Positions 25,977 through 31,490 of a stretch of DNA of 51,557 nt are shown piece by piece. Position numbers and translations under genes: made by a program. The number at the start of each line of letters is the position of its first letter. Position 1 is the stretch's first letter. The notes below the pieces were generated by a model that saw nothing but the letters and a program-made list of their open reading frames with translations, ran no database searches and was not told where the DNA came from. Source of the stretch: Candidatus Saccharimonadota bacterium (GTDB lineage: Bacteria; Patescibacteriota; Saccharimonadia; Saccharimonadales; Saccharimonadaceae); NCBI GenBank assembly GCA_030528625.1, contig JAUMYN010000003.1:1-51557 (forward strand), written 5' to 3'.

Positions 25977-26183
25977 ATGGCTTACAAACACACTAACTCG
26001 AAGGGCGTGACATACTACTTGCACAAGACCGATGTAACATTGCGCGGCGGCAAGACGCAGACCATCTACTTCTTCGCTAAGGTAGAGAAGAATGACAAGG
26101 GTACGCCATGCGACCTGCCAGCAGACCGTATCGTCAAGGAAAATCCACGCAACGGCTTCCTGACAATCTCAAAGAAGAAATAA
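25977..26183 (+). CDS. Small conserved protein typical of Saccharibacteria
   Basis: A 68-residue basic protein (AYKHTNSKGVTYYLHKTDVT, then GGKTQTIYFFAKVE). It has a strong ribosome site, its own promoter with a consensus -35, and a strong terminator, all of which suggest abundant expression as a single gene. I recall near-identical short proteins from Patescibacteria genomes but know no function. Its alternating hydrophobic pattern predicts a small beta-rich fold. No Cys pairs or catalytic motifs are visible. Confidence 0.75.
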   Translation: MAYKHTNSKGVTYYLHKTDVTLRGGKTQTIYFFAKVEKNDKGTPCDLPADRIVKENPRNGFLTISKKK

Positions 26184-26239: not shown

Positions 26240-26265
26240 ATCCCCTCCCTCGGGAGGGGATTTTT
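26240..26265 (+). terminator. Intrinsic terminator after the 25977 gene
   Basis: TCCCCTCC (26241-26248) / GGAGGGGA (26253-26260) forms an 8-bp stem with a CTCG tetraloop, followed by TTTTT (26261-26265). This is the strongest intrinsic terminator in the window. Confidence 0.88.
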
Positions 26266-26315: not shown

Positions 26316-26370
26316 TTGACACACGCTATATATCGGGTGTACAGTGAGACGTAAGCACTAGATATGGTGT
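26316..26370 (+). promoter_or_regulatory. nrdD promoter with two NrdR-box-like operators
   Basis: TTGACA (26316-26321) and TACAGT (26340-26345) are separated by 18 bases. Box 1 at 26323-26338 (ACGCTATATATCGGGT) lies between them. Box 2 at 26355-26370 (GCACTAGATATGGTGT) lies at and just past the predicted start near 26352. Each matches the remembered NrdR consensus acaCwAtATaTwGtgt at about 13 of 16 positions. The boxes are 16 bases apart, so start-to-start distance is 32, three helical turns, the arrangement NrdR uses to repress ribonucleotide reductase operons. Confidence 0.7.
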
Positions 26371-26454: not shown

Positions 26455-28578
26455 ATGTATCAGTCAATCAAAAAACGAGACGGCCGACGGGTAAAATTTC
26501 AGGCGGAAAAAATTACCGCGGCGATTGAGAAGGCTGGGGCTGCCACCGGTGAATTTGGCCGCAAAGAAGCGGAAAAGCTGACCACAAAAGTGCTGGCGCG
26601 CCTGGAGCAGCGCGGCGGCCGAGCGGTGCCGGGAGTTGAGGATATTCAGGACATTGTCGAGGATGTATTGATTGATTCGAAGTTCAAAAAGACCGCCAAG
26701 GCCTACATCATCTACCGCGACCAGCACCAGAAAATTCGCGAGATTACCTCGGCGGCGCATGTCGATTTGGTCGATCAGTACCTTGGCAAGCTTGACTGGA
26801 AAATTAAAGAGAACTCCAACATGGGTTATAGTCTGCAGGGCCTCAACAACTACATTTCGGCTGAGGTGAGCAAGACGTACTGGCTAGATAAAATCTATAC
26901 CCCAGAGATGGCGGTAGCGCACAAATCGGGCGACCTACACATGCACGACCTGAACCTCATCAGCGTGTACTGCGTGGGCTGGGACTTGCTGGATCTGCTG
27001 CGCGAAGGGTTCACCGGTGTGCAGGGCAAAGTCGCCTCAAAGCCCGCCAAGCACTTTCGTTCGGCGCTCGGCCAGGTGGTTAATTTCTTTTACACCCTTC
27101 AGGGCGAGGCGGCGGGCGCGCAGGCCTTTTCGAACTTTGATACGCTGCTGGCGCCATTCATTCGTCACGACAATTTGAGCTACGCCGAGGTTAAGCAGGC
27201 GCTGCAAGAATTCGTCTTTAATGTCAATGTGCCGACCCGGGTGGGCTTTCAGACGCCGTTTACCAATATTACGCTGGACCTCGAGTGCCCCAAGCACATG
27301 GCGGGCAATCCTGTCATTATCGGCGGCGAGATTCAAGACACTAACTACGGCGATTATCAGTCAGAGATGAACACCTTTAACAAGGCATTGCTGGAAGTGC
27401 TGAGTGAGGGTGACGCGTCAGGCCGAGTCTTTACCTTCCCGATTCCGACCTATAACATTACCAAGGATTTTAATTGGGATAATCCCGTCATCGAAAATCT
27501 TTGGGAGGCCAGCGCTAAATACGGCATTCCGTACTTTTCGAATTTCGTCAATTCCGACATGGACCCAGAAGATGCGCGCTCGATGTGCTGTCGGCTGAGG
27601 ATCGATAATCGGCAATTGGAATATCGCGGCGGCGGGCTGTTTGGCTCCAATCCAATGACCGGCTCGGTCGGCGTGGTGACGATCAATTTGCCGCGGCTGG
27701 CGCTGAAATCGAAAGACGAGGCGGCGTTCCGCGAGGGGCTGGCGCGGCTGATGGATATGGCGCGTGACAGCCTGGAAACCAAGCGCAAGGTGCTGGAGCG
27801 CTTGACTGAAGCCAACCTCTACCCATACACCAAGTTCTACCTGCGCGATATCAAAAAACGTTTCAATGAATACTGGAAAAATCACTTTTCAACCATTGGG
27901 CTGATCGGCATGAATGAGGCGGCGCTGAACTTGCTAGGGGTGGATATTGGCTCTGAGGAAGGCAGGGCGTTTGCTGAGCGGACGATGGATTTTATGCGCG
28001 ATCGTTTGGTTGAGTACCAGAAGAACACCGGCAATAACTACAACCTCGAGGCCACGCCAGCCGAGGGCACAACCTATCGATTGGCGCAAATTGACCGCAA
28101 GGACTTTGGGGCGCGGGCGCATTTTGCCAATGGTCGCGGTGATGAGGACATTGAGCCGTTTTACACCAACTCAACCCATCTACCGGTCAATTACACGGAC
28201 GATTTGTTTGAACTGCTGGAGCTGCAAGACACGCTGCAAACCAAGTATACCGGCGGCACCGTGATTCACTTTTTCCTCGGCGAGCGGATGAGCGATCCCG
28301 AAACGCTGAAGCAGTTGGTGAAAAATATCTGTACCAATTATCATCTGCCGTACTTTACCTTTAGCCCGAGTTTTAGCGTTTGTCGCAATCACGGCTATTT
28401 GGCGGGCGAGCATCAAGTCTGTCCGAACTGTGGCGGTGAGACTGAAATTTACTCGCGCGTTGTTGGCTTCCTGAGGCCGGTGTCGCACTGGAACAAGGGA
28501 AAACAGGCTGAATTTGTGATGCGCGAACATTATGATGGAGCGGCGCACGATGCCAGGCTCGCAGTGGCAGCCGCCTAA
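26455..28578 (+). CDS. nrdD: Anaerobic ribonucleoside-triphosphate reductase NrdD
   Basis: A 707-residue class III reductase that makes dNTPs without oxygen. An ATP-cone (KKRDGRRVKFQAEKITAAIEK) occupies about the first 95 residues and gives allosteric control. The catalytic barrel follows. The C-terminal zinc site reads C-x2-H then C-x2-C (VCRNHGYLAGEHQVCPNCGG), and the glycyl radical site is Gly671 in SRVVGFLRP. The ATG at 26455 with AAGGAGGGGG is preferred to upstream TTG/ATG codons at 26428 and 26431. Operon order is nrdD, nrdG, flavin reductase, all overlapping, under an NrdR-like promoter. Confidence 0.96.
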   Translation: MYQSIKKRDGRRVKFQAEKITAAIEKAGAATGEFGRKEAEKLTTKVLARLEQRGGRAVPGVEDIQDIVEDVLIDSKFKKTAKAYIIYRDQHQKIREITSAAHVDLVDQYLGKLDWKIKENSNMGYSLQGLNNYISAEVSKTYWLDKIYTPEMAVAHKSGDLHMHDLNLISVYCVGWDLLDLLREGFTGVQGKVASKPAKHFRSALGQVVNFFYTLQGEAAGAQAFSNFDTLLAPFIRHDNLSYAEVKQALQEFVFNVNVPTRVGFQTPFTNITLDLECPKHMAGNPVIIGGEIQDTNYGDYQSEMNTFNKALLEVLSEGDASGRVFTFPIPTYNITKDFNWDNPVIENLWEASAKYGIPYFSNFVNSDMDPEDARSMCCRLRIDNRQLEYRGGGLFGSNPMTGSVGVVTINLPRLALKSKDEAAFREGLARLMDMARDSLETKRKVLERLTEANLYPYTKFYLRDIKKRFNEYWKNHFSTIGLIGMNEAALNLLGVDIGSEEGRAFAERTMDFMRDRLVEYQKNTGNNYNLEATPAEGTTYRLAQIDRKDFGARAHFANGRGDEDIEPFYTNSTHLPVNYTDDLFELLELQDTLQTKYTGGTVIHFFLGERMSDPETLKQLVKNICTNYHLPYFTFSPSFSVCRNHGYLAGEHQVCPNCGGETEIYSRVVGFLRPVSHWNKGKQAEFVMREHYDGAAHDARLAVAAA

Positions 28579-29281
28579 AAACTGGCCAAAGGTGCCGGTC
28601 GGTGGCGTGCAGAAATTGACCTTGGTGGACTATCCAGGGCACGTGGCGGCAGCGCTGTTCACCGCGGGGTGTAATATGCGCTGCGGCTATTGCCACAACC
28701 CCGAGCTAGTGTTGCCGGAGCGCCTGGCGCCGTCGATCCCGCTGGACGATATCTTCGTCTTTTTGGAAAAGCGGCGCGGGCGGCTGAACGGCGTGGTAGT
28801 GAGCGGCGGTGAGCCGACGGTGCATGAGGAGCTGCCGGAGCTGTGTCGGCTGATCAAGTCGCTCGGCTATGATGTTAAGCTAGATAGTAATGGTACGCAT
28901 CCGGCGATGCTGCGGGAGATGATCGAAAAGGGCTGGATCGATTTTGTGTCGATGGACATTAAGGGGCCGCTGGAAAAGTACATCGAGATTGCGGCGCGGC
29001 CGATTGACTTGGCGGCGATTCGGGAGAGTATTCGCCTGCTGATTGACTCTGGGGTGGGGCATGAGTTTCGCACCACGGTGGTGCGCCAGCAACTGGCGGT
29101 GGAGGATTTTGAGAAGATTGGCCAGTTGGTGCGTGGTGCCGAGCGGTTTGCGCTGCAACATTTTCGACCAGGCAAAACCATCAGTCCGCAGTTTGCCGAG
29201 TTTGACACTTTTGCGGAAGAAGAGTTTGCGGCGGCGCAGAAAATTATGGAAAGGTATGTGACACAATGCATCATCCGCTAA
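28550..29281 (+). CDS. nrdG: Anaerobic ribonucleotide reductase activase NrdG (radical SAM)
   Basis: A 243-residue radical SAM enzyme that makes the glycyl radical on NrdD. The cluster motif C-x3-C-x2-C is Cys41, Cys45, Cys48 (TAGCNMRCGYCHNPEL). GGEPTVHEELPEL is the SAM-binding GGE motif, and VKLDSNGTHP and FVSMDIKGP continue the family pattern. The N-terminus VGGVQKLTLVDYPGHVAAAL matches the activase family. Start choice: ATGs at 28532, 28535 and 28550 are all inside nrdD; 28550 has GGAG 9 bases upstream. The end overlaps the next gene by 16 bases. Confidence 0.93.
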   Translation: MPGSQWQPPKNWPKVPVGGVQKLTLVDYPGHVAAALFTAGCNMRCGYCHNPELVLPERLAPSIPLDDIFVFLEKRRGRLNGVVVSGGEPTVHEELPELCRLIKSLGYDVKLDSNGTHPAMLREMIEKGWIDFVSMDIKGPLEKYIEIAARPIDLAAIRESIRLLIDSGVGHEFRTTVVRQQLAVEDFEKIGQLVRGAERFALQHFRPGKTISPQFAEFDTFAEEEFAAAQKIMERYVTQCIIR

Positions 29282-29928
29282 TAGTGACAGTTAAAAAAGT
29301 GCGCCGGGAAAACCCTGAAGTGGTGACGCTGTATTTTCGCCGCCCGTTTGCGTTTACCGCCGGTCAATACATTACGGTGTATATTCCGGACAGTGCCGTG
29401 ACGGCCGGCAAGGCGTATAGCTTATCGAGTCTGCCGCACGAGGAATTGGCGTCAATTACCGTCAAAGATGTCGGCGGTGAATTTTCGAGCTACCTGTGTC
29501 AGCGAGCGGCGGGCGATGAACTGCATATCAGCCAGCCCTATGGGTATTTCAATCCGCAGACCACGCGGCCGCTGGTGGGAATTGCGGCGGGTTGCGCGCT
29601 GGGGCCGGTGTGGAGTGTACTGGCCAGCGCCGAGCAGGATACCTATCTGTATTTTAGTCATCGTTCGCCTGATAGGACGGTGTTTGATGAGGAGCTGGCG
29701 AATTCTCGCATTCAGGTGACGCACTTTAGTACTCGCCAAAAAGTTGAGGAGGCGAATGGTTGGCGCAATGGTCGCTTTGAGGTGGCGGCAATTGTCCAGG
29801 AGGTTCCGCCAGCAGCACACTTTTTGGTGTGCGGCAGCGTGGAATTTGTGCGTGATGTGTGGCAAAAATTAGTGGCGGCGGGAGTGGACACGCAGCGAAT
29901 TTCAACGGAGACGTTTTTTGAGTCATGA
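29266..29928 (+). CDS. Ferredoxin/flavodoxin-NADP reductase-like flavoprotein
   Basis: A 220-residue FAD/NAD(P)-binding reductase without an iron-sulfur domain. The FAD domain has FTAGQYITVYIP and the flavin motif KAYSLSSLP (usual R-x-Y-S with Lys in place of Arg). GGEFSSYLC is the second flavin contact, GIAAGCALGPVWSVL is the nucleotide-binding loop, and VCGSVEFVRDVWQKL is the C-terminal NAD(P) motif. Overlapping nrdG and following nrdD, it probably delivers electrons for NrdG activation or NrdD turnover, a role usually filled by flavodoxin reductase. The operon link is strong; the role is inference. Confidence 0.85.
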   Translation: MHHPLIVTVKKVRRENPEVVTLYFRRPFAFTAGQYITVYIPDSAVTAGKAYSLSSLPHEELASITVKDVGGEFSSYLCQRAAGDELHISQPYGYFNPQTTRPLVGIAAGCALGPVWSVLASAEQDTYLYFSHRSPDRTVFDEELANSRIQVTHFSTRQKVEEANGWRNGRFEVAAIVQEVPPAAHFLVCGSVEFVRDVWQKLVAAGVDTQRISTETFFES

Positions 29929-31490
29929 GCGAATGTGCCCCGTCATCTGTCGACGACATAAATAGCCCTTCGGGGCCAGAGCAGGAAGGTGTTGCTGAGC
30001 TTGATCTGGTGGCAGTTGCTGGCGGCAGGGCGGAGCTGCCGGTGATTGCTGGTATTGCACCGGTGGCGGAAAAGCCCGAGGCGGATGGCAATCCGGAGCT
30101 GAATACTACTGCGTCGCCCGCAGTGTGCGAAGGGTTGGGGCGGGCAGCCTGTGCTGGTTGTCCATTCTTCCGAAACTGTTTTGGGCAGCAGCCAGAAGCT
30201 GTTGATAAGACCGCACCGCCGAATTATCTCGAGGAGCTATTGGACGAAAAAGGTCCAGAAGTTGTGGTGGCGCGTCCAGCAGCGTCAAAAGAACAGCCTA
30301 GTCCGCCTGGGGCGTCAGCCCAAAAGCAACCTGATACGCCACCGAGTGTGGCGCCAGTTGAAGAGTTATCTCGGTTGCTCACGCCCGTCGAAGAGCCGGC
30401 GGTGGGCCCAGAGGCGATCGCTCCTGTGGTTGAGCCAGAGGTGAAAAATGAGAGTACTCAGCCAGTCATAGAAGCTCCACCGCTTCAGCCATCACCAACG
30501 TTGGCTGAAGCCAGGTCGGCGTCTATTGAGGAGCAAGCGTCGGAATCATCGGAAGAATGTTCGACGCTACAGCCAACTGCGCCTGAAGTTGATGCGGTGG
30601 CAACCCCGCCAGAAGAGAGCGATAGGGTTGAATTGCCAGCGACTTTTCAGCCGATGGATGATGCTGCTTTCGGCGTGGCCTCGCTGAACCTGGAGTCGAT
30701 CACTCATGAGGTCGCGGTTAAGGTGAACACCGCACCGATCGACCAATCGCCTGCTTCGGTGGTTGTAGCGCCTGTGCCGTTGGTTGCGGTCTCTATGGCA
30801 ACAGAGCAAGATCTGCTATTGCAGTCCCCTGTCGATAAGGGAGCAACTGAGCGGTTGTTGAGCTGGGATGTCGAAGAGACCGGGGAACTAGAGTGCTTGC
30901 CGTATCCAGCTGCACCGTTGGTGATGCGCCCAGGGGAATTGGCCATGGCGGTAGACGATGAGGGGTGCGAGGAAGTGCCACGTCGAACAGAACAGGGTGG
31001 GTGTGAGTGGAAACAGCCGGACATAACCAGTCCTTATAGCGAGATAGAGCAGAACACATCGCATGAGGGGTGGGCGCTGGCCGAACAGCCAGGTGCTGAT
31101 GAGGCGCTTGATCCGCCCATCCGTTCTCAGGAGACAGAGGCAGACGCTGGAGGCGAACAGCCGCTGGTAGCCAATAAAATTGCGGTGGTCGAGGAAGGTG
31201 GTGTTGAGCAATCTGATAACCCATTGGAGGACTGTCAGGCAGAGGCTGGTGTTGTCATGGCGCTGCAACCGCCAGATATTGTTGTAGAAAAAACATCATT
31301 GTGCCAACTGGTGGATAATACAGCGGTTCCTTTTGAGAATGGCGTGTCGCCCTATGATGAATCCCTGGCTGACAATAGCCCGGAAACTGAGTCGCCAGCC
31401 CCGCGTAATGACACACCATGGTGGTCAACGATACTGGGGATGGTTGCGGTGTTTGTCGCTCTTCAGCGCCGTCAAGGTGCGGTATACTAG
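29925..31490 (+). CDS. Acidic Pro/Glu-rich protein with four-Cys motif and C-terminal membrane anchor
   Basis: A 521-residue protein. Near the N-terminus a compact C-x7-C-x2-C-x5-C motif (Cys68, 76, 79, 85; in AACAGCPFFRNCF) could bind an Fe-S cluster or zinc. The next ~400 residues are low-complexity, rich in Pro, Glu, Ala and Val with repeated PVEEP-like phrases, predicted disordered. A C-terminal helix (WWSTILGMVAVFVAL) with a basic end would anchor it with the bulk cytoplasmic or outside. The ATG overlaps the reductase gene by 4 bases, so it is the last gene of the anaerobic reductase operon. No known family is recognised. Confidence 0.65.
   Translation: MSECAPSSVDDINSPSGPEQEGVAELDLVAVAGGRAELPVIAGIAPVAEKPEADGNPELNTTASPAVCEGLGRAACAGCPFFRNCFGQQPEAVDKTAPPNYLEELLDEKGPEVVVARPAASKEQPSPPGASAQKQPDTPPSVAPVEELSRLLTPVEEPAVGPEAIAPVVEPEVKNESTQPVIEAPPLQPSPTLAEARSASIEEQASESSEECSTLQPTAPEVDAVATPPEESDRVELPATFQPMDDAAFGVASLNLESITHEVAVKVNTAPIDQSPASVVVAPVPLVAVSMATEQDLLLQSPVDKGATERLLSWDVEETGELECLPYPAAPLVMRPGELAMAVDDEGCEEVPRRTEQGGCEWKQPDITSPYSEIEQNTSHEGWALAEQPGADEALDPPIRSQETEADAGGEQPLVANKIAVVEEGGVEQSDNPLEDCQAEAGVVMALQPPDIVVEKTSLCQLVDNTAVPFENGVSPYDESLADNSPETESPAPRNDTPWWSTILGMVAVFVALQRRQGAVY

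Follow-up and report, generated by a model that had tools for sequence, protein, structure and literature searches.

A paired NrdR-box operator predicted over the nrdDG promoter of a Saccharibacterium, and a cysteine-free NrdR as its most likely reader

The nrdDG promoter and its box pair

Which protein reads the two NrdR-box-like sites lying over the promoter of the anaerobic ribonucleotide reductase (RNR) operon in this genome, and does it do so without zinc? In descriptions of NrdR the protein consists of a Zn-ribbon and an ATP-cone, and DNA binding requires the zinc domain; Saccharibacteria are tiny parasitic bacteria, episymbionts with reduced genomes. The features concerned, within the window (the whole stretch of DNA analysed, 51,557 bases), are:

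26240..26261, + strand: intrinsic terminator of the gene upstream of nrdDG (terminator scan)
26316..26321, + strand: -35 hexamer TTGACA of the nrdDG promoter (consensus scan; TTGAC kept in five aligned sequences)
26323..26338, + strand: NrdR box 1, ACGCTATATATCGGGT, between -35 and -10 (consensus match, alignment of relatives)
26340..26345, + strand: -10 hexamer TACAGT (consensus scan)
26355..26370, + strand: NrdR box 2, GCACTAGATATGGTGT, just 3' of the inferred start site (consensus match, alignment of relatives)
26455..28578, + strand: nrdD, class III (anaerobic) ribonucleoside-triphosphate reductase, which itself carries an ATP-cone at the N-terminus (Pfam NRDD E=1e-200, Pfam ATP-cone; NF006126 / TIGR02487 above cut-off)
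28532..29281, + strand: nrdG, radical-SAM activating enzyme of the NrdG2 type; the gene overlaps nrdD (TIGR02495 193.7 bits, cut-off 131.15)
29266..29928, + strand: FAD/NAD oxidoreductase, overlapping nrdG (Pfam NAD_binding_1 above cut-off)

Since the terminator closes the upstream gene, nrdDG forms its own transcription unit, in which the oxidoreductase gene is probably included; a ribosome site, AAGGAGGGGG, precedes the nrdD ATG at 26455. Two further frames flank this unit. Just upstream of the promoter, at 25977-26183, a small basic protein of 68 amino acids has its own ribosome site and terminator, and after the operon, at 29925-31490, there is an acidic low-complexity frame of 521 amino acids, bearing the motif CAGCPFFRNC close to its beginning.

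The original prediction, of two 16-base sites resembling NrdR boxes at this promoter, is borne out by direct reading of the sequence: each box agrees with the consensus ACACTATATATAGTGT at 13 of 16 positions, and the two are separated by 16 bp (32 bp centre to centre, or three helical turns), box 1 falling within the -35/-10 spacer and box 2 beginning at about +4, counted from an inferred start near 26352. A scan of 701 bp showed no sigma-70-like site other than the promoter itself (TTGACA at 26316, 18 bp, TACAGT at 26340-26345). C4 and G13 are found in both boxes, and the gap falls inside the range of 14–17 bp bound by NrdRs, for which 24–27 bp has also been reported (PMC12051234).

Conservation of the pair over nrdD

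The same pair, in the same place and with the same 16-bp gap, is kept over nrdD in the relatives G050, G153/G148, G130 and G104, whose NrdD proteins are 95%, 82%, 84% and 79% identical to that of the window, as the original prediction would require. The exception is G123 (NrdD 81% identical), where a scan of the nrdD promoter found no good box pair. In the alignment of the window with G153 the two boxes are each 94% identical and the spacer 56%; with G104, the values are 69% and 88% for the boxes and 31% for the spacer.

These data bear on whether the sites might be AT-rich palindromes that arose by chance at an ordinary promoter, a reading to which the three mismatches in each site and the frequency of TATATA-like words near promoters lend something. 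We consider it extremely unlikely, given that position and sequence are kept in relatives and that two sites were found where 0.07 were expected: boxes 1 and 2 are the sole matches to the consensus at three or fewer mismatches in the window, shuffled versions of which gave a mean of 0.07 matches (sd 0.26) and never two (0/100). An equally good pair arose in none of 200 dinucleotide shuffles of the 300 bp upstream of nrdD (p=0.005, the floor of a 200-shuffle test for box pairs), and the 788-kb genome contains seven sites at this threshold compared to two for a reversed-pattern control.

Full-length relatives of the window's type of NrdD were found in only a handful of genomes close to the genus of the window, making the type rare in the class, and after Saccharibacterial records its nearest named relatives are from Smithella and other Syntrophaceae (67–69%). 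Horizontal acquisition of this nrdD is therefore likely. Several of those Syntrophaceae nrdD promoters also carry box pairs. In one genome (G089, L162) an nrdD of the window's type is interrupted by stop codons and a frame change.

Box pairs elsewhere in the genome and family

It had been suggested that the same pair be sought upstream of other nrd genes, and one was found on the class I RNR gene nrdA (contig C2), its boxes lying 32 bp apart. The arrangement of -35, box 1, -10 and box 2 recurs over this nrdA and over RNR promoters across the family. In all 29 family nrdA promoters the best pair reached p <=0.05 in the shuffle test, most of them at the floor of 0.005, and the different type of nrdD present in other genera has pairs in 24/24 promoters at p=0.005. 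Box readings excluded one genus-level locus (L299, in G150), clipped by a contig end.

Many family nrdA promoters have a second, more distal box set near -290 (e.g. L194, L207 and L213, about 290 bp before the start), often a palindrome (for instance ACGCTATATATAGCGT) followed by TTGTAAATA, upstream of the pair that overlaps the promoter; two box sets have also been reported for nrdAB of Listeria (PMC12051234).

Outside RNR genes, a single NrdR-box-like site with three mismatches (C3:274498-274513) lies 93 bp upstream of thyA, which a dihydrofolate-reductase-like frame adjoins. No partner box was found for it; G050 has a site with four mismatches at the same place (-95), and most other relatives have none. 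We tentatively list thyA as a further NrdR target. A pair (six and two mismatches, 32 bp apart) lies 8–55 bp upstream of a greA-like gene at C3:494129-494176, and an apparently intergenic site, CCGCTATATATGGTGT (C3:388932-388947), has a weak partner with seven mismatches 32 bp away. Further sites in the genome are at C3:113718, inside a coding frame, and at C3:160076.

Two NrdR-like proteins, one of them cysteine-free

The presence of an nrdR gene, on which the original prediction depends, was established with PF22811, which identified two NrdR-like genes in the genome: C3:525013-525462 (NrdR1) and C2:31529-32026 (NrdR2). With an nrdR present and the sites conserved in relatives, the NrdR-operator interpretation stands as far as sequence carries, and the window pair is a predicted NrdR operator over the nrdDG promoter. 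The operator itself is an ordinary find, one more instance of something already familiar; the protein predicted to read it is not a standard one.

The gene for NrdR1 directly follows ftsZ. Its product scores 132.4 bits on TIGR00244 (cut-off 124.65), covering profile positions 10–146 of 147, matches the NrdR structures 9fvr and 7p37, and has an ATP-cone above the Pfam cut-off. The zinc of E. coli NrdR is held by Cys3, Cys6, Cys31 and Cys34 (PMC12176259); the equivalents of all four are missing from NrdR1, whose N-terminal domain contains no cysteine at all, and the in-frame stretch upstream, which we inspected, supplies none of them. Because it lacks the family-defining CxxC feature, we regard NrdR1 as a cysteine-free NrdR homologue and not as a standard member.

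The residues that contact DNA are kept. At the positions equivalent to D15, R17, R26–29 and R37, NrdR1 has E, R, RRRR and R, and the glutamate in place of D15 is usual in the class, being found also in 24/25 cysteine-bearing relatives. The loss of all four zinc cysteines together with retention of these contact residues points to zinc-free DNA binding by NrdR1. In the ATP-cone, equivalents of V48, K50, R51, E56 and K62 align; mutation of V48, K50, E56 or K62 abolishes binding elsewhere. This conserved cone suggests that NrdR1 senses ATP and dATP. Since the equivalent of the switch tyrosine Y128 is phenylalanine here, as in many relatives, nucleotide sensing and the discrimination of ATP from dATP may differ in the window's organism. 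Coupling of cysteine loss to this substitution was considered and ruled out, as tyrosine is kept in 26/75 cysteine-free proteins. A scan of viral contigs for a copy of NrdR1 found no relative.

Extent of cysteine loss and the remodelled ribbon

In a census by sequence pattern, which missed G118, 75 of the 79 NrdR1 proteins of the family (f1) lack the four cysteines, the exceptions being G036, G055, G103 and G125. All 21 NrdR proteins examined from the rest of the class keep all four. A phylum-wide sample of 28 sequences gave the same division: two family members have none, and the 26 others, three of which are already in the class census, keep four. Loss throughout most of the family with retention elsewhere is therefore a trait of one family and no sequencing fault. 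In a tree built from the ATP-cone only, f1 groups together (SH-aLRT 100), and cysteine state changes three times, only one of these changes being forced by well-supported branches.

One explanation for such a protein is that NrdR1 is decaying and that the boxes were left behind by an earlier regulator, as the disappearance of all four metal ligands might suggest. The pattern of conservation is difficult to reconcile with this. Among the 75 cysteine-free proteins, RRRR and the arginine before FTT (the R37 equivalent) are present in 75/75 and ESR in 74/75. The first knuckle is replaced by I-G-[DE]-S, whose isoleucine and glycine are near-invariant (73/75 and 74/75); ahead of this motif, the position of the second cysteine mostly holds a hydrophobic residue. 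The second knuckle is typically S/T/A-x-D-G, a D-G turn. The invariant arginines, ESR and the new I-G motif argue against decay and for a remodelled domain under purifying selection. The boxes, moreover, are conserved above their spacer, and they also stand over the window's type of nrdD, which few members of the class have and which was probably gained by horizontal transfer. We therefore think decay very improbable.

It is also conceivable that Asp, Glu or His residues have taken over as zinc ligands in the N-terminal domain of NrdR1, and an Asp/Glu at position -5 before ESR and the Asp of the D-G turn are conserved. However, there is no conserved histidine (38/75 proteins have none in the domain), and the knuckle-1 positions are occupied by hydrophobic or variable residues, so that this reading is unlikely. 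A ribbon folded around a core without metal, with the DNA-contact residues retained, is the form that we prefer, and NrdR1 most likely works as an NrdR does.

Which protein reads the boxes

NrdR1 is not the sole candidate in the window's organism, since NrdR2, with intact CxxC pairs, is also encoded. The start codon of nrdR2 ends a strongly conserved element, TTWTCCACTAG-(about 11 bases)-TAGC-N-GTATGNCAATATATAGAYATG (C2:31430-31531; L127 1400-1503, L128-L146), which is kept even outside the family and leaves almost no leader; its TTWTCCACT resembles a DnaA box. It may serve as a leaderless promoter, or else as an operator for nrdR2.

If NrdR2 bound the boxes, NrdR1 would do something else or nothing. 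Both CxxC pairs are present in NrdR2, it passes the Pfam zinc-ribbon cut-off, and zinc was held necessary for DNA binding in earlier work. Against this, NrdR2 falls far below the family cut-off on TIGR00244 (49.8 compared to 124.65 bits), its ATP-cone scores 20.8 where the Pfam cut-off is 25.8, and it is absent from many relatives in the family with strong box pairs, PF22811 finding in these only the cysteine-free NrdR. We thus regard NrdR2 as an unlikely reader, though the least unlikely of the alternatives to NrdR1. Mixed oligomers, in which NrdR1 would give the sensing ATP-cone and NrdR2 a zinc-stabilised DNA-binding domain, would suit two proteins of which one has a good cone without cysteines and the other cysteines with a weak cone. 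The chance of this is slim, as NrdR2 has been lost in g2, g3, g8, g9 and others with the boxes retained, and as NrdR1 proteins that co-occur with NrdR2 outside the family keep their own cysteines.

The more direct evidence comes from genomes with a single NrdR. A PF22811 search of 28 family genomes found only one NrdR in 25 of them, and the cysteine-free proteins align to the profile only from position 9 or 10 onwards, past the first CxxC. Strong pairs occur in cysteine-free genomes of this kind, for example a perfect ACACTATATATAGTGT in G061 and a pair with one and two mismatches in G136. A set of 40 boxes was taken from 20 cysteine-free genomes in which no NrdR2 was detected. C4, A6, A8, T9, T11, G13 and G15 are invariant in it, although this conservation is somewhat inflated because resemblance to the consensus guided the choice of boxes; all seven are also present in both boxes of the window. 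Because genomes with a cysteine-free NrdR alone keep consensus boxes, the zinc-free "Zn-ribbon" is the protein most likely to read them.

Our main reading, to which we give a probability of roughly 85%, is that the two window boxes form an NrdR operator at the nrdDG promoter, most likely read by NrdR1 without zinc. For the family as a whole, it seems reasonably probable that the RNR regulon is run by a zinc-free NrdR, the ribbon having been re-cored without metal and operator specificity having remained unchanged. We infer binding, repression, nucleotide sensing and the absence of metal for NrdR1 from sequence comparison.

ATP-loaded NrdR forms an assembly unable to bind DNA, while dATP in the outer site leads to tetramers, which engage two boxes simultaneously and introduce a kink into each (PMC9110341, PMC12176259). 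By this scheme a rise in dATP would cause a dATP/ATP-loaded NrdR tetramer to grip both boxes on one helix face and shut the promoter, contact at box 1 covering the -35/-10 spacer and contact at box 2 the start region. High dATP would close both nrdDG and nrdA, and because NrdD itself has an ATP-cone, dATP feedback may apply to both enzyme and gene.

Comparison with known zinc-bearing and zinc-free regulators

The NrdR systems of E. coli, Streptomyces coelicolor and Listeria (PMC9110341, PMC12176259, PMC12051234) have, as here, boxes with C4/G13 and a gap of 14–17 bp over an RNR promoter. In the S. coelicolor structure six arginines lie on the DNA backbone, and D15 and R17 are at bases near the conserved GC pairs C4/G13 (PMC9110341). 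Known NrdRs share with NrdR1 the RRRR motif, R17, R37 and an ATP-cone with the nucleotide-contact residues equivalent to V48, K50, R51, E56 and K62, and nrdD and nrdA are targets there and predicted targets here. Unlike them, NrdR1 has none of Cys3, Cys6, Cys31 and Cys34, its knuckles being I-G-[DE]-S and D-G; it has Glu for Asp15 and, in the window's organism, Phe for the switch Tyr128, and its genome encodes a CxxC-bearing paralog.

Loss of zinc ligands with retention of function has parallels in other families. Makarova, Ponomarev and Koonin, in 'Two C or not two C' (2001), are said to have described C-minus ribosomal proteins, in which zinc-ribbon cysteines are lost recurrently while fold and role are retained. 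Those are ribosomal paralogs, whereas NrdR1 is a transcription factor, the loss spans a whole family, and often no zinc-bearing copy is left. DksA2 of Pseudomonas is a zinc-free paralog of DksA that has lost its zinc cysteines, still works as a regulator and serves as a back-up during zinc starvation. It acts beside the zinc form, whereas NrdR1 is the sole or main copy.

Within the NrdR family, the zinc domain is considered crucial for binding, after work on Streptomyces, and added zinc enhances binding by E. coli NrdR (PMC4898720). NrdR of M. smegmatis is a thiol-sensitive zinc redox switch, in which hypochlorite oxidises a zinc cysteine and the regulon is derepressed (PMC5430705). It belongs to the same repressor family as the Saccharibacterial form and likewise controls an RNR regulon, but the latter has no oxidisable cysteine at that place. 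A literature search, with most subscription journals outside its scope, found no paper linking NrdR with Saccharibacteria, Patescibacteria or the candidate phyla radiation, and no report of a cysteine-free NrdR. The loss of the zinc cysteines from the Saccharibacterial repressor, with its target sites intact, thus appears to be previously undescribed.

Implications for RNR control in Saccharibacteria

A cysteine-free NrdR would be blind both to hypochlorite oxidation and to zinc enhancement. If our reading is correct, RNR transcription in this family would no longer be tied to zinc supply or to thiol oxidation (for example by host hypochlorite), and adenosine nucleotides (dATP, ATP and ADP) would remain as its input. 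Possible reasons for the loss of zinc are that a reduced genome economises on the metal and that oxidants can then no longer drive derepression. NrdR1 would also offer a natural minimal repressor with which to ask whether the role of zinc in the family lies in folding, dimerisation, or redox or metal sensing. The conserved operators and their predicted reader suggest that in these episymbionts with reduced genomes the transcription of both class I and class III RNRs remains under dNTP feedback.
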